DNA of 21,433 nucleotides from a virus. The notes beneath the pieces are model-generated. The model ran no database searches. It was not told the DNA's origin and worked only from the letters and a program-made list of their open reading frames with translations. The DNA is taken from positions 1 to 21,433 of the IMG/VR virus record IMGVR_UViG_3300017776_003333. One strand, given 5' to 3'. Positions within the stretch are counted from its first letter, which is position 1. Every line of letters begins with the position of its first letter. The translations under genes and the position numbers were made by a program. Positions 3,172 through 16,077 of the stretch are shown here, in pieces.

Positions 3172-3378
3172 CTATAACCTCACTCTGTTTTCTAAATTAT
3201 AAATAACACCGAGCAAAGCAAGTTCTGCTCTTTTGCCTATCATTACTTTGCCATTCTCCCATCTAGAAATAACTGATCTATTGGGAATACCACCACTGAA
3301 GTAACCTAGTTCTCTAGCTAAATCTGATTGCGTAAGATCATACTTATTTCTAAATTGTTTTAAGTCTTTACCATCCAT
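3172..3378 (-). CDS. XRE-family (Cro/CI-like) helix-turn-helix regulator
   Basis: The start is placed at ATG 3378, which forms a TAATG overlap with the upstream stop. An in-frame ATG four codons earlier (3390) would overlap further. The 68-residue protein is essentially one HTH_3 domain. DLKQFRNKYDLTQSDLAREL is the first helices, SVISRWENGK is the recognition helix with the typical SRWENG signature, and a final helix closes the fold. It lacks a C-terminal oligomerisation or peptidase domain, so it resembles Cro or an antitoxin-type repressor more than CI. The operon it belongs to is headed by a palindromic operator (4851-4866), so autoregulation and control of the other two copies of that operator is a reasonable but unproven guess. 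Confidence 0.85.
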   Translation of the reverse strand: MDGKDLKQFRNKYDLTQSDLARELGYFSGGIPNRSVISRWENGKVMIGKRAELALLGVIYNLENRVRL

Positions 3379-3863
3379 TATTTCCACCATTTAGGTTTAT
3401 TAACACCTTTGTTCCATGCAGCATAGTGTTTTTCGTTAATCATGTAATCACGATAAGCTGCAATGTGATTATACTTTCTTTTATATTTGTCAGGCATAGC
3501 CTGTGCAAAACTGGTCATTTCACCTTCTTGTATGTTCATGGGAAAGCGCAACAGACCTTCTTGCAAATCTCCCCATGATTTGTGGTTATGTCCATATCGT
3601 AATTTAAACTGCGAACACAACTCAACCCAATGCAGCAAAAGCCACCTGTAATTTTCATGAGTTGTTCTTGCCCATATAGTGCAAGGGTGATTTACAAAAG
3701 CAGGCTTGTAAAGATTGTAAACATCACAATACTGCTTGGGTGATAGTAGTCTATGTGCGGTGCATAGCATTTGTGCGCTTTCTAGCGGCATCTTGCAAAT
3801 TAATTTATCAGGCAAGTCTATAGCTGCCAAATCTGGTTCTAGTCTTACTGCAAATATATTCAT
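3378..3863 (-). CDS. Conserved phage protein of unknown function
   Basis: A 161-residue protein with a pattern I recognise from many phages: an N-terminal strand MNIFAVRLEPDLAA, then LICKMPLESAQMLCTAHR, the motif FVNHPCTIWAR, and a C-terminal AAYRDYMINEKHYAAWNKG. The conserved His, Cys, Trp and Arg residues suggest an enzyme or a DNA-binding protein. Some databases give this group names linked to pyrimidine-dimer glycosylase, but I see no clear match to T4 endonuclease V and do not assert that. It overlaps the start of the next gene by four bases upstream (ATGA) and the XRE gene downstream. Confidence 0.7.
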   Translation of the reverse strand: MNIFAVRLEPDLAAIDLPDKLICKMPLESAQMLCTAHRLLSPKQYCDVYNLYKPAFVNHPCTIWARTTHENYRWLLLHWVELCSQFKLRYGHNHKSWGDLQEGLLRFPMNIQEGEMTSFAQAMPDKYKRKYNHIAAYRDYMINEKHYAAWNKGVNKPKWWK

Positions 3864-4807
3864 AGTTTTACCTCATAATCTTTTTGTACTACACCAACAT
3901 CTTTACTACCTCTAAAATGCGCTTTTACAAATGTGTGCTTGCCATTGTTAAGTCTGCGTAAATGTTTTCTTACACTGTGAAACTTTGTTCCTTCCGACCT
4001 GCTGCCATTACTGCAACCTGTACCGCTCTCACTGCCATAAAGGTCTAATTTAAGAGTTTTATGCTCCCATGTAGGCTTTGCCCTTAGTTCACTTACTTTG
4101 TACCTGCTGCGGCTTTCTAACACCTGTGGCTTTATACCTTGCACATCTTTAGTATTAGTTATTTGCGGAAAGTGCATCATTAACATAAAAGTAGTTATAC
4201 AAGTTGATATACTTTCTGCCCAACGTATTAGTGAACGATTTGTGTACATACCATTTTCATCAGCACTAAAATCTGTGCAGTGTGCAAATGGATTTGTTTC
4301 TTCATTTTCATTTAACATATATTTAAATGTTGAGTTTTTATAAAACTCAAGCAGGTATAGATTCGGATCAAACAAAAAAGCATCATCTGCAGGAATATAT
4401 GGAATAGAACATACGCTAAATTGACTTTGTATGTTCTGATCAATATCTTTTGATGGCACATCCCACAACATGTCACAAATAACCATATTGATAACTATCT
4501 CACCTGCATCAAATTGCATGTAACACATTTCATATGGTAAGCAAAAAATTATCTCTTCAGATATTTTATTAGCTTCCTCTGTTGTTAAGGCATCTTCTTT
4601 TACGTCAATATAAAATTTTTGTGAATTTTGTATGCTTCGCGTCAACAACTTAAAATTTTGATACATATCACCTGTGGTTAAAACATCAGGTTCCATATGA
4701 TCAGGCATAAACCAATTTTTCTTGAAAGCTGAATTTGCATCTTTTGTATATCTAGAATCAAAAGTTTTGTAAGTATGAAGTAGTTTTTCTAATATTAATT
4801 TATTCAT
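3860..4807 (-). CDS. Conserved phage protein of unknown function (315 residues)
   Basis: This is the first gene of the leftward operon behind the promoter at 4836-4865, with GGAG nine bases before ATG 4807. The N-terminal two thirds are acidic and contain Cys and Met clusters with no recognisable motif. The C-terminal 50 or so residues carry HSVRKHLRRLNNGKHTFVKA followed by HFRGSKDVGVV and a terminal KDYEVKL. That HSVRKHLRRL...GK...V.AHFRG signature is shared by several phage proteins of unknown function and looks like a small basic nucleic-acid or protein-binding module. Its position at the head of an operator-controlled operon suggests an early or lysogeny-linked gene. Confidence 0.75.
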   Translation of the reverse strand: MNKLILEKLLHTYKTFDSRYTKDANSAFKKNWFMPDHMEPDVLTTGDMYQNFKLLTRSIQNSQKFYIDVKEDALTTEEANKISEEIIFCLPYEMCYMQFDAGEIVINMVICDMLWDVPSKDIDQNIQSQFSVCSIPYIPADDAFLFDPNLYLLEFYKNSTFKYMLNENEETNPFAHCTDFSADENGMYTNRSLIRWAESISTCITTFMLMMHFPQITNTKDVQGIKPQVLESRSRYKVSELRAKPTWEHKTLKLDLYGSESGTGCSNGSRSEGTKFHSVRKHLRRLNNGKHTFVKAHFRGSKDVGVVQKDYEVKL

Positions 4808-4835: not shown

Positions 4836-4866
4836 ATAATATAACATATTGTTTACATTTGTAAAC
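4836..4866 (-). promoter_or_regulatory. Leftward promoter overlapped by palindromic operator (copy 1)
   Basis: Read on the minus strand, TTTACA (4865-4860) and TATTAT (4841-4836) are 18 bases apart; TATATT (4843-4838) at 16 bases is an alternative -10. The palindrome GTTTACAAATGTAAAC (4866-4851) covers the -35 box. The rest of the 61-base gap holds the leader and ribosome-binding site (CGGAG, 4821-4817) for the gene starting at 4807. The same palindrome, exact, lies upstream of 15949 and, degenerate, upstream of 5862. Confidence 0.65.
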
Positions 4867-4868
4867 AC

Positions 4869-5462: not shown

Positions 5463-5602
5463 TACACGCTCTCCAATTTAAGCACTAACTCAGCTGCATC
5501 CCTTCGTAAATTAGGACTTAGAGCATTTTTTGATAATTGTTGTGTGGCAAGACCCAACAGAACTAATTCATGTTCTGTAACTTCTAATACAATTTTTTTC
5601 AT
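5462..5602 (-). CDS. 46-residue unknown protein
   Basis: ATG at 5602 overlaps the stop of the upstream gene and its own TAA (5464-5462) overlaps the next ATG, both as TAATG. The double coupling is the strongest evidence that this short frame is translated. The product MKKIVLEVTEHELVLLGLAT... is mainly two helices, with Leu- and Val-rich faces and a SPNLRRDAAELVLKLE segment. No motif recognised. Confidence 0.6.
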   Translation of the reverse strand: MKKIVLEVTEHELVLLGLATQQLSKNALSPNLRRDAAELVLKLESV

Positions 5603-5862
5603 TAAACTAACTCCCTTACAATTTCTACATCACTATGATGATTAGAGTCTTCCAAAGCCTCTACAAATGTTTCAAAGATACTATCTCTGTCCCATTGGTT
5701 AAACTTAGATACAATCAGACCTAACACCTCAGCATCACTAGGTGCAGCATCTTGTACATATGCTTTCTGTTTTATAGTTTGTATGAGTTGTGGCATAACA
5801 TTATGGATAATGTCATCACTGCTTGGGTTTCCATTATTAGGTACATCATTTAAGTTTTTCAT
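5602..5862 (-). CDS. Unknown acidic protein, first gene of a leftward operon
   Basis: An 86-residue acidic protein that starts with an Asn/Asp/Ser/Pro-rich, probably disordered segment (MKNLNDVPNNGNPSSDD) and continues with amphipathic helices (VMPQLIQTIKQKAYV, AEVLGLIVSKFNQW, IFETFVEALED). TTGGAG lies eight bases before ATG 5862. It is the first gene behind the promoter and operator at 5896-5924. Function unknown. Confidence 0.65.
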   Translation of the reverse strand: MKNLNDVPNNGNPSSDDIIHNVMPQLIQTIKQKAYVQDAAPSDAEVLGLIVSKFNQWDRDSIFETFVEALEDSNHHSDVEIVRELV

Positions 5863-5895: not shown

Positions 5896-5924
5896 ATTAT
5901 ATACATGTTTACAAAAATAAACAA
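5896..5924 (-). promoter_or_regulatory. Leftward promoter overlapped by degenerate palindromic operator (copy 2)
   Basis: On the minus strand TTGTTT (5924-5919) and a perfect TATAAT (5901-5896) are 17 bases apart. The sequence GTTTACAAAAATAAAC (5907-5922, plus strand) is a degenerate version of the palindrome GTTTACA-WW-TGTAAAC found at the two other leftward promoters, with five of seven bases of one arm matching the other, and it covers the -35 and spacer. The leader contains ATTAACTTAATAT (5879-5891, plus strand), also found at 15972-15984. Confidence 0.65.
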
Positions 5925-5937
5925 GTACATTTTGTGC
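5925..5937. repeat. 13-base repeat GTACATTTTGTGC, inverted copy of 16027-16039
   Basis: This 13-mer is the exact reverse complement of the one at 16027-16039. In both places it lies two to nine bases from the GTTTAC-type operator, upstream of a leftward promoter. It is itself imperfectly palindromic, with an ACA/TGT core, and may be a second operator type or an upstream promoter element. Confidence 0.45.
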
Positions 5938-8233: not shown

Positions 8234-9022
8234 TTACCTCAAGTTGAATAGTTCAATAGCAGCTTCTTTTTCTTTGTTTGACCATTTCCAATCATCAAAG
8301 TCAGGAACAAGTAATCTTGCTATTTGGTTAATATCATCAGAATAAGATAATAACTCCATCATAGAGTTACAGGCTCTTCTGACCACTCTTAAATGCTCTT
8401 CAATATCAGATACAGGCACAGTCTTGACCATTTGTTTGGTCTTGCTTGCGTATACGTAGTCAATTAAAGGAACAGCATCTAACGCAGTTGCGTAAATAGA
8501 TAACTGTCTGCTATAAGAATTTGGTAATTTACTAGGCATGCGACTGGTGGTCTTTATATCACGCACCACACCATCATAATAAAGATCATAGTAGCCAATA
8601 ATGGGAATGGGTATTTCTTCAAACTCAAGTTTAATTTTACCCTGTGTTTCTATAGGTTTGCCTAGTTGCCTGTAAAACGGAACAGATATTTTTACGTACT
8701 CTATGAGCATGTCTCTTTCAGTTTTGGATTTAGTTCTATCAAAATAAAGATTGCCCTGTCTAGCTTCTTTTTCTTTTTCATCATAAACATTCAAAGCAAA
8801 ATCAACCAAGCTGCGTTCAGATAATCTCATATCGTCTAAAGATTTTTCTATGGCGTTGTCTGTTGCAGTACCCCTCCAAAAAGCAGGTATGCCTAAGTTT
8901 TCTGTATAGCCACTTACTTTTAATAGCCAACGTGTAGGATTTTGTATGTATTCGTTTATTGAAGATGCGCTTAAATGATTAACATTGTGCGTCTGAAAAG
9001 GATTGTTACTTACTGTATTCAT
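8234..9022 (-). CDS. PD-(D/E)XK exonuclease (RecB/Cas4-like)
   Basis: ATG 9022 is used; the frame could open at a TTG four codons earlier. The 262-residue protein has the RecB-like nuclease layout. HLSASSINEYIQNPTRWLL (16-34) is the usual opening and AFWRGTATDNAIE (47-59) stands in the place of the motif that often holds a His. GYYDLYYDG with Asp146 and RDIKTT with Asp155 and Lys157 form the D...D-x-K active site. QLSIYA with Gln173 is the final motif. The enzyme should resect double-stranded DNA to give the single strands used by the ERF annealase downstream. It is the first gene of the recombination operon. Confidence 0.85.
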   Translation of the reverse strand: MNTVSNNPFQTHNVNHLSASSINEYIQNPTRWLLKVSGYTENLGIPAFWRGTATDNAIEKSLDDMRLSERSLVDFALNVYDEKEKEARQGNLYFDRTKSKTERDMLIEYVKISVPFYRQLGKPIETQGKIKLEFEEIPIPIIGYYDLYYDGVVRDIKTTSRMPSKLPNSYSRQLSIYATALDAVPLIDYVYASKTKQMVKTVPVSDIEEHLRVVRRACNSMMELLSYSDDINQIARLLVPDFDDWKWSNKEKEAAIELFNLR

Positions 9023-9047
9023 TTTATATATCAATTAATCTGCATGT

Positions 9048-9076
9048 ATATTAATACAAAATGGGTGGATATGCAA
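9048..9076 (-). promoter_or_regulatory. Leftward promoter of the recombination operon with an operator-like repeat
   Basis: On the minus strand TTGCAT (9076-9071) and TAATAT (9053-9048) are 17 bases apart, in the 78-base gap between the divergent genes starting at 9022 and 9101. The 18-base motif ACAAAATGGGTGGATATG (9056-9073) fills the spacer and recurs with 16 of 18 matches at 9321-9338. No clear rightward promoter was found for the HTH gene. Confidence 0.45.
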
Positions 9077-9100
9077 TATTAAATGATGTATCCTGTAATC

Positions 9101-11367: not shown

Positions 11368-12059
11368 TGAAGCAAGTTAAAGAATTATATGATGCTGCTG
11401 CATCTAGATATGACGCAATGTATAACGAAGATAATGCAAAGCTTATTGAGGCTGAAAATATGTTTATTTATGAAAATTTACCAACCACAGGTGCAAAAAC
11501 AATATTAGATTGCGGATCAGGAACTGGTTTGTTTGTTGATTTGTTTAAAAAGGATTTATGGCATTGTAAATATCAAGGCTTAGACATTAGTAAAAAAATG
11601 ATTGATATTGCCAAAAAAAAACATCCTGAAATAAGCTTTGACGTATGTGACTTTATGACATATGACGAAAGCAATAAGTTTGATTTAGTCATAAGTCTTT
11701 TTGCAGTCTCTGATTATTGCGGTGTAGAAGGTGTACAAAAAATGAGCAGACACCTTAAAAAAAATGGGTTGATGTATTTAACATTCATAAATAAAAATGG
11801 TGGATATAATGCTTTATGTCATGAACAAATGAATACAGATATAGAAACTGTCAAATTTACATATAAAGAAATTAAAGACATATTAGAAAAAATGGAATAT
11901 GATTGGTCGTACATTTTGGGTTTTTCCAGTTTGGAGTACAATGATGCAAATGGATCGTTTAAATTTAAAGACTCAGTTGAGGCTATATATACAGACATGG
12001 AACATAAAAAACATGATCTCAACAACTGTAAGTATTATCTTCTTATCTTGCAGGTATGA
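11367..12059 (+). CDS. Class I SAM-dependent methyltransferase
   Basis: The 230-residue protein is a Rossmann-fold methyltransferase. Motif I is ILDCGSGTG (46-54), motif II GLDISKKMIDIAKKKHP with the acidic residue that binds the SAM ribose, and FDVCDF the next. DLVISLFAVSDYCG is motif IV/post-I. There is no DPPY or NPPF, so it does not look like a classical DNA amino-methyltransferase, and the layout fits small-molecule or general methyltransferases of the UbiE/type 11 kind. Start and stop overlap both neighbours (TAATG with the helicase, ATGA with the PAPS-reductase-like gene), which ties it to the cassette 11367-14311. Substrate unknown. Confidence 0.85.
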   Translation: MKQVKELYDAAASRYDAMYNEDNAKLIEAENMFIYENLPTTGAKTILDCGSGTGLFVDLFKKDLWHCKYQGLDISKKMIDIAKKKHPEISFDVCDFMTYDESNKFDLVISLFAVSDYCGVEGVQKMSRHLKKNGLMYLTFINKNGGYNALCHEQMNTDIETVKFTYKEIKDILEKMEYDWSYILGFSSLEYNDANGSFKFKDSVEAIYTDMEHKKHDLNNCKYYLLILQV

Positions 12060-13192
12060 AGCTTAATCTTAACATAAGTGTATTTGATGCCGCTTTAAAT
12101 CGGTTACAGGAAGTATATGAGCAAGGTCATACAGTAGTAATTTCACAAAGCGGTGGTAAGGACTCAACTATCTGTATGGAAATGGCAATTATGGCTGCAG
12201 ATGCAGCAGGCAAGTTACCAATAAACGTAGTTCATAGGGATGAAGAAATATTATTTCCTAATACTTACGAATATTTAGACAGGGTAGCCGCTAGACCAGA
12301 AGTAAACATGCATCATCTGTATGCAGGACAACCAGTCGTAAATGTATTTAATAGAAACTTACCTTATTGGTGGATATTTGATGAAAATCTTGCACCATCA
12401 GACTGGGTACGACAGCCTCCTGAATACGCCTACAGAATAGATGAAAAAAATATAAATGGTTTAGTAACACCTGAAAGATTTCCTGTAGAAGAAGGAAAAG
12501 ACTTGTTTGCTTGTATAGGGTTACGAGTACAAGAAAGCCCAAACAGGCGTATGGGATTATTTTCAAGCAAAGGACACATTACAAAACCTAATGACAGAGG
12601 AGTCAAATACATAAGACCGATCTATGATTGGACTGATGGAGATGTTTGGAAAGCTATTTCTGATTTCAAATGGGATTACAATCATGCTTATGATGTTATG
12701 GTAAAACACGGAAGATCAAAAAACAAATTACGCATAGCACCGCTTACTATGACTACTGCAGGTATACCTGATTTACAATTAGCGCAGAAAGCTTGGCCTC
12801 GGTGGTTTGATAAAGTCTGTCACAGATTAGAAGGTATACGAACTGCAGCACAGTTTGGAAAAATATCATGTCAACCAATACGAAAATCAGGAGAGACATG
12901 GGAAGAATGTTTTAAAAGAGAATGTATTGAGGAAGCACCACAATGGATTTCTGAAAGAGCAGTAAAAATCATGGATACTGAGGTAAGAAAATTTAGCAGA
13001 CAAAATGGTTCTGATATGGATTTTCCACAAGTTAATTCTATAAGAGCCAACCCAAATGGTTCATGGAAAAAGCTAGCTATGAATATGTATAACGGAGACC
13101 CTTTTTCATTAAAACAAGGCACACTTCCATATATGGAACCCGAATACTTTAGAGAAGGAAGCGGAACTTGGGGAGGCAAACCTACATTTTAA
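12056..13192 (+). CDS. PP-loop PAPS-reductase-like enzyme (IbrA-like)
   Basis: The 378-residue protein has an N-terminal PP-loop ATP pyrophosphatase domain with SQSGGKDST (30-38) and then VVHRDEEILFPNTYEY, as in phosphoadenosine-phosphosulfate reductases and ATP-using sulfur-transfer or adenylating enzymes. The later segment YIRPIYDWTDGDVWKAIS is the usual substrate-side motif. The C-terminal part (about 200-310) has the pattern of the extended family known from IbrA of E. coli prophages: APLTMTTAGIPDLQLAQ and ICHRLE-type helices. The ParB-like gene two genes downstream completes an IbrA/IbrB-type pair. What it modifies is unknown: sulfur transfer, nucleotide or base adenylation and regulation are all possible. 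Confidence 0.8.
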   Translation: MKLNLNISVFDAALNRLQEVYEQGHTVVISQSGGKDSTICMEMAIMAADAAGKLPINVVHRDEEILFPNTYEYLDRVAARPEVNMHHLYAGQPVVNVFNRNLPYWWIFDENLAPSDWVRQPPEYAYRIDEKNINGLVTPERFPVEEGKDLFACIGLRVQESPNRRMGLFSSKGHITKPNDRGVKYIRPIYDWTDGDVWKAISDFKWDYNHAYDVMVKHGRSKNKLRIAPLTMTTAGIPDLQLAQKAWPRWFDKVCHRLEGIRTAAQFGKISCQPIRKSGETWEECFKRECIEEAPQWISERAVKIMDTEVRKFSRQNGSDMDFPQVNSIRANPNGSWKKLAMNMYNGDPFSLKQGTLPYMEPEYFREGSGTWGGKPTF

Positions 13193-13509
13193 TGAACACA
13201 TCGGAATTGAAAAAAGAGATAGAAAAGGCAGATTGGGTGTGGGCAAAGACATATGCCGACATAGCACCGCATTGGTATATACGAGATATAGAACATCCTC
13301 TTCTTTATGGTATGTTACTACATAAAATTAAAAATTATGGCGTTGATGAAAACTACACAAATGATAAAGGCGTAACATATATCTGCAGATATTTATATCA
13401 TGGCAAACATAAATATTGGTGGATGCGACCAGTAATAAATAGAGCATTAATAGATGAATCACCTAACGTAACAAAACATCATAACAAATACGGAGAAAAT
13501 TATGGCTAG
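13192..13509 (+). CDS. Small conserved protein of the PAPS-reductase/ParB cassette
   Basis: ATG 13192 forms a TAATG overlap with the preceding stop and gives 105 residues. An in-frame ATG at 13168 lies inside the upstream gene. The protein is rich in aromatic residues and His: WVWAKTYADIAPHWYIRD at about 18-35, HPLLYGMLLHKI, then YLYHGKHKYWWMRPVINRA near the end. The signature resembles a family of small proteins whose first half reads W.WA.T...APHWY, found beside phage and bacterial genes of varied function. It stands between the IbrA-like and ParB-like genes and overlaps the latter by eight bases. A structural or substrate-binding partner is the simplest guess. Confidence 0.65.
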   Translation: MNTSELKKEIEKADWVWAKTYADIAPHWYIRDIEHPLLYGMLLHKIKNYGVDENYTNDKGVTYICRYLYHGKHKYWWMRPVINRALIDESPNVTKHHNKYGENYG

Positions 13510-14311
13510 AACTAAAGGTAAGGCTGAAGTAGAAAAGAAAAATAAAGTACTAGAGGCTTTAGATATTAAATACATAACACATGATAAAATTGTTCCTAAT
13601 ACATACAATCCCAATAGACAATCAGATGATGAATTTGAATTGTTAAAAAGATCAATGACCGAAGATGGTTTTACACAACCTATTGTATGTGTACATCATG
13701 AAGAACAAGATGGTATGTTTCGCATAGTAGATGGAGAGCATAGGTGGAGATGTTCTAAAGAATTAGGTTATGAAGAAATACCTATCGTAGTAACTCCAAT
13801 GACTTACGAACAAGCAAGAATAGCAACATTGAGACACAACAGAGCAAGAGGCTCAGAGGACATAGAACTTACATCAGAGGTATTAAGAGACTTAGAAAAA
13901 TTAGGTGCTTTAGATTGGGCGCAAGATAGCTTGATGATGGACGATCTAGAATTACAAAGAATGATAGAGGATATACCTGCTCCTGAGGCAATGGCAGATG
14001 AAGAATTTGGAAGTGCATGGATTCCATCTGATTCTGATTCATCAGAAGATAGTGTTCGTGGCACAGAACATCAAACCGCAGATGGAACAATGATCAAGGC
14101 TTTAACACCTGAAGCGTTATCACAACAAAGACAGGTAGAAAAGAAAATTGCAGAAGCAAAAACTGAAGAAGAAAGAACTATGGCAGTACAAGCTGCTAAC
14201 TTCTATAGACTTAATCTAGTATTTAGTGGAGATGAAGCAGATATAGTTAAAGGAGTATTAGGAGAAGAACCTGCAAATGCTCTATTAATGCTTTGTAAAG
14301 CACAAAACTAG
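13502..14311 (+). CDS. ParB/sulfiredoxin-fold protein (IbrB-like)
   Basis: The 269-residue protein has a ParB N-terminal (ParB/Srx) domain at about 22-110. It has IVPNTYNPN, then EDGFTQPIVCVHH, and VDGEHRWR (77-83), the equivalent of the GERR box that binds nucleotide in ParB and ATP in sulfiredoxin. VVTPMTYEQARIATLRHNRARG follows, which is typical of phage ParB-like proteins. A helical middle and an acidic, serine-rich linker (185-200) lead to a helical C-terminus. No obvious chromosome-partition HTH is present. With the PP-loop gene upstream, the closest known pairing is IbrA/IbrB. GGAG lies eight bases before ATG 13502. Confidence 0.8.
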   Translation: MARTKGKAEVEKKNKVLEALDIKYITHDKIVPNTYNPNRQSDDEFELLKRSMTEDGFTQPIVCVHHEEQDGMFRIVDGEHRWRCSKELGYEEIPIVVTPMTYEQARIATLRHNRARGSEDIELTSEVLRDLEKLGALDWAQDSLMMDDLELQRMIEDIPAPEAMADEEFGSAWIPSDSDSSEDSVRGTEHQTADGTMIKALTPEALSQQRQVEKKIAEAKTEEERTMAVQAANFYRLNLVFSGDEADIVKGVLGEEPANALLMLCKAQN

Positions 14312-14409
14312 CAAAAATGGGTTACAGAAAAGCGTTTTAAGCAACGATAGGGTCATGGGTAATGGTATAGCATCCCCCTAATCATAAGGCTTGCAAGTCG
14401 TTGAGCAAT
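14312..14409. other. Non-coding gap with possible RNA structure, no gene assigned
   Basis: No open frame of useful length. CAACGAT (14342-14348) can pair with GTCGTTG (14397-14403) as a seven-base stem (one G-U), enclosing a segment with a D-arm-like stretch GGTAATGGTATAGCATC. A canonical tRNA cannot be drawn: the distance is about ten bases too short, and no proper anticodon or T arm forms. It follows the last gene of the rightward operon and precedes the terminator of the leftward operon. Confidence 0.3.
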
Positions 14410-14437
14410 AAAAAAGACCTCTTGCGAAGTCTCTTTT
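14410..14437 (-). terminator. Intrinsic terminator of the amidoligase-GGCT operon
   Basis: On the minus-strand RNA, AAAAGAGACUUC and GAGGUCUUUUUU form a 12-base-pair stem that includes two G-U pairs, closed by a GCAA (GNRA-type) tetraloop and ending in six U. It begins nine bases after the stop of the gene ending at 14446. Read the other way, the two G-U positions become A-C mismatches and the U-run is broken by C, so it should act mainly leftward. Confidence 0.75.
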
Positions 14438-14445
14438 ATCTAAGT

Positions 14446-14913
14446 TTACTTTACTAATCTAAAGTCTCTTTGTTCTTCTCTAGCATACGCATCTTTTATT
14501 GCATACTTAAGGTAAGTTTCATCAAGACCAAAATCATCATAGCCTTCCATTATGCAATCTAAGTAGGGCATTGATGGAGGATATACTGATGTACTATTCA
14601 TAAAGTAAAGCATCACTTTGTCAGTATCAAAATCATCTGTAAGGTTAGGCACAGTAACAATTTTTTTACCATAAAGGTTCGGATAGCCTTCATATATGTC
14701 CAAAGCTGCTTCACACCTCTGTGTGATTCTCCAAAGTCCGATTGGTACAACTGCATCATTTGTTTCTGCAATATCAGCAACACCTCTAAACTTTAGTTCC
14801 CAACCATGCAATAACAAGCTTCCCAAGGGTTCTGCATCAGGACATCTAAGATTCATTTGTCCTAAGTTGAGGTTGCTTCCGTAGGCTCCGTATAAGTAAG
14901 ATTTAAACTTCAT
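14446..14913 (-). CDS. Gamma-glutamylcyclotransferase-like protein (GGCT/AIG2 fold)
   Basis: ATG 14913 is chosen because AAGGAG lies six bases before it, after the amidoligase stop. The in-frame ATG at 14955 is within the amidoligase gene. The 155-residue protein has LYGAYGSNLN (7-16), the signature loop of the GGCT fold, then MNLRCPDAEPLG, and IYEGYPNLY (73-81), whose Glu75 matches the catalytic glutamate of the family. Known members release 5-oxoproline from gamma-glutamyl peptides or gamma-glutamylamines. It is the partner of the amidoligase upstream, and the pair may make and cleave a gamma-glutamyl-type amide bond. It ends at a clear leftward terminator. Confidence 0.85.
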   Translation of the reverse strand: MKFKSYLYGAYGSNLNLGQMNLRCPDAEPLGSLLLHGWELKFRGVADIAETNDAVVPIGLWRITQRCEAALDIYEGYPNLYGKKIVTVPNLTDDFDTDKVMLYFMNSTSVYPPSMPYLDCIMEGYDDFGLDETYLKYAIKDAYAREEQRDFRLVK

Positions 14914-14926
14914 ATTTTTCTCCTTT

Positions 14927-15949
14927 TTAGTTAAGTTCATTTTCTCTTTCTTCAAAGTAGTTTTTGACTCTTTGGTCTACACCATCTAGCCATCCACCAT
15001 CTTGTTCTGTGGCAACATTGCCTGTTTGTGTCTGTAAGACCCAAATTTCCTGTAATTCACTATTACCTGTTTTTCCACAAAGGTATCTGTAAGCAGCGTC
15101 TCTATCTAAAGAACTTTCTCTTGCACCTGTATAAAGATCATTCAATATAGAGTTTCTAAGTATAGTAATTCCAACTCCGTTTCTATCAACTATCCATCCA
15201 TTGTGCCTTCTGCTATAAGTAACATCATATCCATTGTTTTCTAAGATGTTTCTTATCATGTTGTAAGGTCTGTTTTTGTTTGCAGCAGATGTTCTTGTGC
15301 TAGTAAGCTGAACACTTCTTTCAACAAAGGTCTGCAAGAAACTTAACCAATTAACAATCTTAGTAAAATTTAAAGTACCACTGTGGTGTCTAAACTCTAT
15401 AGTTCCGTAAGTAGTAAGTTTGTTAAGATTTACTTTGTAGTATTTACCTGCTGCATGAGCAAGTCTGTTTTTTGAATTTTGTCTCTTGATTGTGTTTTTA
15501 TTAGGCACAACACTGTCACACCAATTAGCGTTACCTCTTCTGCTTCTAGGCATAATAAGATCAATCTGCGCTTCATAGTCTGCGTATCTTTCATAAACAG
15601 TTTGTATCTGCCCAACAGTAAGATCATCAACACCAAGATGTATGTGTAAACCACAATTTCTAGTGACCTTTATACCCTCTATAGAATCTAAAGCTTCACA
15701 TACTTTTAACAACTCAGCTACACCCTCTGCACCTTTTAAGATTGGCGATACTATTTCACCGCAAGTAGTGTAATTAGGTAAGCTGCCATCAGTAACAATC
15801 TTCCAAGATTCCATCACTCTATGTGTGTAACCTTCATAGTGACATTCAACCACTTGGTTAAGAGTGTTAGCTACTAGGTGTATATCTGCACCTTCAAACT
15901 CCATTTCTATTCCAAATGTTCTGTCTGTTATGGTTGGTAAGTTATTCAT
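14927..15949 (-). CDS. Amidoligase-family (ATP-dependent amide-bond ligase) enzyme
   Basis: The 340-residue protein matches the COOH-NH2 ligase / glutamine-synthetase-fold amidoligase family. RTFGIEMEFEG (10-20) gives the first strand with acidic metal ligands. NCGLHIHLGVDDLT (98-111) gives the His pair. TIEFRHHSGTLN (183-194) supplies Glu, Arg and His residues of the ATP and metal site. The family forms amide or peptide bonds between carboxyl and amino groups using ATP. The GGCT partner 13 bases downstream fits gamma-glutamyl chemistry, on a protein, a peptide or the cell wall; the substrate is unknown. AAAGGAG lies before ATG 15949, and the promoter at 15989-16017 is covered by an operator. 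Confidence 0.85.
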   Translation of the reverse strand: MNNLPTITDRTFGIEMEFEGADIHLVANTLNQVVECHYEGYTHRVMESWKIVTDGSLPNYTTCGEIVSPILKGAEGVAELLKVCEALDSIEGIKVTRNCGLHIHLGVDDLTVGQIQTVYERYADYEAQIDLIMPRSRRGNANWCDSVVPNKNTIKRQNSKNRLAHAAGKYYKVNLNKLTTYGTIEFRHHSGTLNFTKIVNWLSFLQTFVERSVQLTSTRTSAANKNRPYNMIRNILENNGYDVTYSRRHNGWIVDRNGVGITILRNSILNDLYTGARESSLDRDAAYRYLCGKTGNSELQEIWVLQTQTGNVATEQDGGWLDGVDQRVKNYFEERENELN

Positions 15950-15988: not shown

Positions 15989-16018
15989 ATTATAGGGTAA
16001 ATGTTTACAAATGTAAAC
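15989..16018 (-). promoter_or_regulatory. Leftward promoter overlapped by palindromic operator (copy 3)
   Basis: On the minus strand TTTACA (16017-16012) and a perfect TATAAT (15994-15989) are exactly 17 bases apart. The palindrome GTTTACA-AA-TGTAAAC (16003-16018) covers the -35 box. The leader shares ATTAACTTAATAT (15972-15984) with the 5862 operon and CAATTTATCTCC (15952-15963) with the 4807 operon (4809-4820). Confidence 0.75.
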
Positions 16019-16026
16019 ACTTATTT

Positions 16027-16039
16027 GCACAAAATGTAC
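16027..16039. repeat. 13-base repeat GCACAAAATGTAC, inverted copy of 5925-5937
   Basis: Exact reverse complement of 5925-5937. It lies between the leftward promoter/operator (15989-16018) and the rightward packaging promoter (16048-16077), nine bases from each. A protein bound here could affect both promoters. Confidence 0.45.
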
Positions 16040-16047
16040 TATTTTTT

Positions 16048-16077
16048 TTGACACTGGTTAAGACTTATAGATAGAAT
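16048..16077 (+). promoter_or_regulatory. Rightward promoter of the packaging and capsid operon
   Basis: TTGACA (16048-16053, perfect -35) and TAGAAT (16072-16077, five of six matches) are 18 bases apart, 31 bases before the small terminase start. It is divergent to the amidoligase promoter, with both in the 159-base gap 15950-16108. The TerS leader has no strong ribosome-binding site. Confidence 0.6.

Follow-up and report, generated by a model that had tools for sequence, protein, structure and literature searches.

An amidoligase and gamma-glutamyl cyclotransferase gene pair in the presumed early regulon of a marine phage group

Introduction

Sets of amidoligase and cyclotransferase genes have been noted in phages since 2009. 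According to PMC5498523 and PMC11945000, the LUZ24-, RIO-1- and phiEco32-like phages carry together the genes of an amidoligase, a gamma-glutamyl cyclotransferase (GGCT), a glutamine amidotransferase (GATase), a second ligase and an ATP-grasp enzyme. There, this gene set was predicted to be a peptidoglycan modification cassette which might prevent superinfection, and the prediction is credited to Iyer 2009 and Hardies 2013. The two families occur together in LUZ24-like, RIO-1-like and Vibrio phages. No experiments on, and no substrate for, any phage amidoligase-GGCT pair were found in the literature searched.

The pair analysed here is encoded by a marine phage known from an IMG/VR virus record; the window is the whole analysed stretch of 21,433 bases. 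The first-pass annotation had named the amidoligase-GGCT neighbourhood as one described in phages, which agrees with PMC5498523 and PMC11945000, both of which build on the work of Iyer and Hardies. As in the RIO-1, LUZ24 and phiEco32 podovirus cassettes, a PF12224 amidoligase occurs with a GGCT among early or replication genes. In contrast to these cassettes, the window has only two such genes, they form an opposite-strand unit with an early-regulon operator, and the amidotransferase was not found.

Results

Organization of the locus

The amidoligase and cyclotransferase reading frames lie on the minus strand and are flanked by two plus-strand genes, one ParB-like and the other encoding the terminase small subunit (TerS) (Table 1). 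The opposite-strand position of the unit, with the modification cassette on one side and the packaging genes on the other, had been described from the first reading and was confirmed by the positions of the reading frames. Both genes were found to be real, and the enzyme families originally assigned to them were supported by Pfam and PHROG. Neither protein matched the defence-system models or NCBIfam.

Table 1. Positions of the gene pair, its control elements and the related sites in the window.
Feature	Position	Strand	Details
GS-like amidoligase (PF12224)	14927-15949	-	340 aa; Pfam and PHROG matches
Gamma-glutamyl cyclotransferase (GGCT/AIG2-like)	14446-14913	-	155 aa; Pfam and PHROG 2520
Operator palindrome TGTTTACAAATGTAAACA	16002-16019	.	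overlaps the -35 element and spacer of the amidoligase promoter
Amidoligase promoter TTTACA-17-TATAAT	15989-16017	-	11/12 consensus bases
Second shared element GCACAAAATGTAC	16027-16039	.	exact copy otherwise only at 5925-5937
Intrinsic terminator hairpin, 3' of the cyclotransferase gene	14407-14440	-	-16.8 kcal/mol, z -5.2
Operator copy, identical	4850-4867	.	at the promoter of a regulon partner, gene 3860-4807
Third operator copy	5906-5923	.	promoter of the 5602-5862 early operon
GCACAAAATGTAC copy	5925-5937	.	exact match search of the window
XRE-type HTH protein encoded by the early operon	3172-3390	-	HTH_3 match
Packaging-gene promoter-like site (divergent), TTGACA-18-TAGAAT	16048-16077	+	promoter scan

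Amidoligase and cyclotransferase

The amidoligase matched PF12224 (Amidoligase_2) with an E-value of 1.9e-27 and 97.2 bits (curated cut-off 22), and PHROG 2443 with an E-value of 6.7e-42. The protein consists of a catalytic part, approximately residues 1-230, and a variable C-terminal part, approximately residues 230-340. Residues E15, E17, E65, H102, H104, K172, N174, E185, F186, R187, H189, G191 and T192 were invariant in 26 ligase sequences, and the GS-like motifs ExE, HxH and EFRxHxGT are present and invariant in the same number of sequences. The HIH and EFRHH motifs pointed out in the first-pass annotation are located at residues 102-104 and 185-189, respectively. No match to a solved structure was obtained up to an E-value of 1 when the PDB sequences were searched with the ligase profile. 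The structural model (pLDDT 76) gave gamma-glutamylmethylamide synthetase as the top Foldseek match against the PDB, followed by glutamine synthetases. These matches, which were mostly to glutamine synthetases, are weak and consistent: the top probability was 0.99, but with an E-value of 4e-3 and a TM-score of 0.34. The protein is predicted to be a GS-fold enzyme with ATP-dependent amide ligation activity.

The cyclotransferase matched PF06094 with 27.5 bits (cut-off 22.8) and PHROG 2520 with an E-value of 2e-28. Its family and the numbering of Glu75 had been given correctly at the outset, whereas the start codon had to be corrected to the ATG at 14913. This codon was preferred over an upstream TTG; it is preceded by AAGGAG, lies 13 bases past the stop codon of the ligase gene, and is supported by the alignments of the relatives. 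Residues Y11, G12, N14, E75 and G76 were invariant in 23 cyclotransferase sequences, where Y11-G12-N14 form a YGSN-type loop. Human GGCT entries were the best solved relatives of the cyclotransferase profile, with E75 aligned to human Glu98. Human GGCT was also the best fold match of the model (pLDDT 92.5; 2i5t, E-value 3.5e-9, TM-score 0.72). Glu75, proposed earlier as a residue to mutate, superposed on the catalytic Glu98 of the human enzyme; in the entry 3cry, this position reads Q.

The dN/dS values determined against the relative G003 were 0.14 for the amidoligase and 0.07 for the cyclotransferase, indicating purifying selection on both genes. The invariant active-site residues, the structural matches and the purifying selection suggest that both enzymes are probably active.

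Promoter, operator and terminator

The promoter, operator and terminator proposed for the unit in the first-pass annotation were all found to be real. The promoter, read from 16017 to 15989, is overlapped by an 18-bp palindrome, TGTTTACAAATGTAAACA. The terminator, which was overlooked by a simple terminator scan, is a 15-pair hairpin followed by T-rich DNA, and hairpins of different sequence occur at the equivalent place in three relatives (L005, L006 and L010). Because of the hairpin after the cyclotransferase gene and its equivalents in the relatives, the unit is probably transcribed as a bicistronic RNA with its own end. In L007 (7059-7640), L009 (4206-5347) and L018 (4117-5270), extra genes are inserted between the cyclotransferase terminator and the ParB gene.

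The search of the window for TGTTTACAAATGTAAACA with up to 3 mismatches resulted in 5 matches at three distinct sites, compared with 0.12 expected in shuffled sequences. The palindrome is exact at 4850, in the promoter of the gene for a 315-aa protein, and has two mismatches at 5906, in the promoter of the 5602 operon; both sites belong to early leftward operons. In the window, the 13-bp element GCACAAAATGTAC is found unchanged at two places, the ligase promoter and the 5602 promoter, and nowhere else. The control of the unit had been regarded as isolated and private, which does not hold, as the operator and the second element recur at these early promoters. The 315-aa early protein (3860-4807), whose promoter bears TGTTTACAAATGTAAACA, has no Pfam or PHROG match and is kept in the relatives.

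The palindrome was found at the same position, with slight variation, in every core-clade relative. The core TGTTTA-N6-TAAACA was detected in 16 of the 20 relatives' records and the reversed pattern in none of the 20. The long relatives retain both the ligase operator and the 5602-type operator. In the diverged relative G016, TGTTTACAAATGTAAACA is absent, and the promoters of the ligase and of the 3860 homologue bear GGGTTGYAATAAYAAC instead; a perfect palindromic version of GGGTTGYAATAAYAAC occurs at a third site. An operator which has been replaced at several promoters and yet kept in step is good evidence for common control. Since the operator is common to the early promoters and has changed in parallel in a relative, the amidoligase-cyclotransferase unit is a member of the early regulon of the phage.

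This regulon is presumably an early one, as on the same strand it includes functions in recombination and single-strand binding as well as HTH genes. The XRE-type HTH protein of the early operon may be the regulator of the three operators, and relatives of this candidate were found in G003, G004, G007, G010, G014, G016 and G017. The comparison of its recognition helix with the operator type across the relatives gave no clean correlation. At 9020-9095 of the window, the divergent exonuclease/Cro-like promoter region has a TACAAAATGGGTGGAT-type motif which is kept in the relatives and is perhaps a second operator system.

Distribution among related phages

As selection by the ligase is biased, relatives were also selected by TerL. 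The ligase and the cyclotransferase were present at the same site and on the same strand in all 24 core-clade contigs of the TerL selection. The sister clade also has the pair, with a shorter ligase and a separate gene of 78-84 aa between the two. The third clade has neither the pair nor the PAPS-reductase-like gene. The pair thus belongs to the fixed core of genes in this phage group and is no recent add-on.

The gene of 78-84 aa, seen in L068, L078, L079 and L087, occurs only where the ligase lacks the C-terminal extension. The idea that it is the detached C-terminal part of the ligase was rejected, as it has no sequence support, and no homologue of the gene was detectable in the window. In L153, a Flavobacteriales-binned contig from a more distant phage of the family, the unit has moved across the PAPS/ParB cassette to its opposite side. 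That cassette (12056-14311 in the window) encodes a PAPS-reductase-like, a 113-aa and a ParB-like protein and resembles IbrA/IbrB; the phage relatives of the PAPS-reductase-like protein are annotated as IbrA.

The unit had been suggested to be a moron-like accessory. The own promoter and terminator fit a moron, but sporadic presence and independent regulation do not apply: the carriage by 24 of 24 core-clade contigs at the same site, the purifying selection and the shared control led to the rejection of this view. A temperate lifestyle was also considered and set aside, as tyrosine integrase was absent from the seven long relatives.

Discussion

The pair would constitute a modification unit which is expressed early and directed at the host. 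In an ATP-consuming reaction, the amidoligase would link an amine with a carboxylate, the latter probably in the gamma position of a glutamyl group. Release of gamma-glutamyl groups as 5-oxoproline by the cyclotransferase could serve to trim or recycle side products or to reverse the modification. The suggestion of opposed enzymes, one attaching and one removing a gamma-glutamyl-type group, is chemically sensible. The likeliest target would be the peptide part of the host peptidoglycan precursors, with an altered envelope of the infected cell as the result. Two points favour peptidoglycan precursors, namely the context in the literature and the endolysin of the phage, a PF00959 lysozyme which cuts the glycan; the phage's own enzyme would presumably tolerate changes in the peptide. 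The phage might benefit through a remodelled envelope or through the exclusion of superinfecting phages. That host peptidoglycan precursors receive an early modification of the gamma-glutamyl type is a tentative reading, only just short of probable. The enzyme families, the intact active sites, the two-gene transcription unit, the shared operator and the conservation argue for it. The missing amidotransferase of the classical cassettes argues against it, and the adjoining methyltransferase/IbrA-like/ParB-like cassette could point to nucleic acid as the target.

In butirosin synthesis, the ligase BtrJ and the cyclotransferase BtrG handle a gamma-glutamyl group. Similarly, the phage pair could attach such a group and take it off again, or use it for protection and deprotection, on a small amine or on a protein of either host or phage. 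The chemically opposite enzymes are mostly paired in phages, with a GGCT in 8 of 11 further phage records that had been selected by the ligase, and gamma-glutamylmethylamide synthetase is the best fold match of the ligase; however, a candidate carrier protein was not found and no homologue of the small sister-clade gene was detected in the window, and the BtrJ/BtrG-like role is rather unlikely. A related view, which we consider improbable, sees the pair as a minimal, reversible system for writing and erasing gamma-glutamyl groups. Such a system would be expressed early and tag nucleic acid or a protein of the host, thereby neutralising defence or redirecting the host, and would not be a cell-wall set. 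It is also unlikely that the pair taps the pools of gamma-glutamyl amines, glutathione or glutamate during infection. The closeness of the cyclotransferase to human GGCT, an enzyme of gamma-glutamyl amino acids, fits such a metabolic role, but mere catabolism would require no conserved ligase of a separate family, and no solved glutamine synthetase matches the ligase in sequence. The bacterial amidoligase relatives, with a cyclotransferase nearby in just 7 of 71 loci, are uninformative on the phage pair.

An extra step in the modification of DNA or nucleotides by the adjoining cassette (with methyltransferase, PAPS-reductase/IbrA-like and ParB-like genes) is quite improbable as the role of the pair, in spite of the strong co-occurrence within the family. 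Both the PAPS-type gene and the unit were present in 20 contigs and neither in 17, and no contig had one with a visible lack of the other; the relocated unit of L153 still adjoins the PAPS/ParB cassette. However, this pattern needs at most 2 changes on the TerL tree, one of which is due to a contig edge (L092 ends before the site), so that co-inheritance accounts for the co-occurrence, which does not in itself show a functional link. The association is not repeated in other phages: a clear full-length PAPS-type gene was found in just 3 of 17, in none of them adjoining the pair, and many phages have IbrA-like genes without an amidoligase. The unit is also on the strand opposite to the modification cassette and under different control. 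Cross-linking or modification of the virion is most improbable; the unit does adjoin the packaging and capsid genes, but its opposite strand, early-type operator and own terminator speak against a virion role.

Of the classical partners in the predicted peptidoglycan modification cassettes, the glutamine amidotransferase (PF13522) was sought in the seven long relatives; the window itself is a fragment. The amidotransferase was absent from these relatives and was detected in five other cassettes by the same search, and its location elsewhere in the genome was rejected. No ATP-grasp enzyme or second COOH-NH2 ligase is among the named neighbour genes of the window. In the records tested, the amidotransferase was present in Vibrio, Alcaligenes, Arthrobacter and E. 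coli phages and absent from the relatives of the window, Geobacillus phage GR1, the Heliusvirales and a Terrisporobacter phage. As the relatives lack the amidotransferase in the same way as GR1, the Heliusvirales and the Terrisporobacter phage, the pair of the window is a reduced two-gene form of these cassettes. The kind of system is known and biochemically unsolved and the novelty is modest; the regulation of this member is unusually clear. As it comprises no more than two genes and its early operator is defined, the pair is among the simplest forms for finding the substrate. The parallel replacement of the operator at two promoters offers a handle on an early regulon in uncultured marine phages.

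The human GGCT (2pn7, 3cry) is the best sequence and fold match of the cyclotransferase, with the catalytic Glu aligned. Among phages, the Arthrobacter phages Wheelbite and Ottawa have the GGCT adjoining the amidoligase as in the window but, unlike the window, the glutamine amidotransferase as a third gene after the two. Geobacillus phage GR1, the Heliusvirales gut phages and the Terrisporobacter phage share with the window an adjacent pair without GATase in the tested records. These phages have Firmicute hosts, and in several of them a zinc-ribbon gene follows the GGCT. Their pairs are co-directional with the neighbouring genes, unlike that of the window, and the proteins are approximately 35-40% identical. 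In the Heliusvirales, the pair likewise has the terminase genes on one side and ParB-like or DNA methyltransferase genes on the other.
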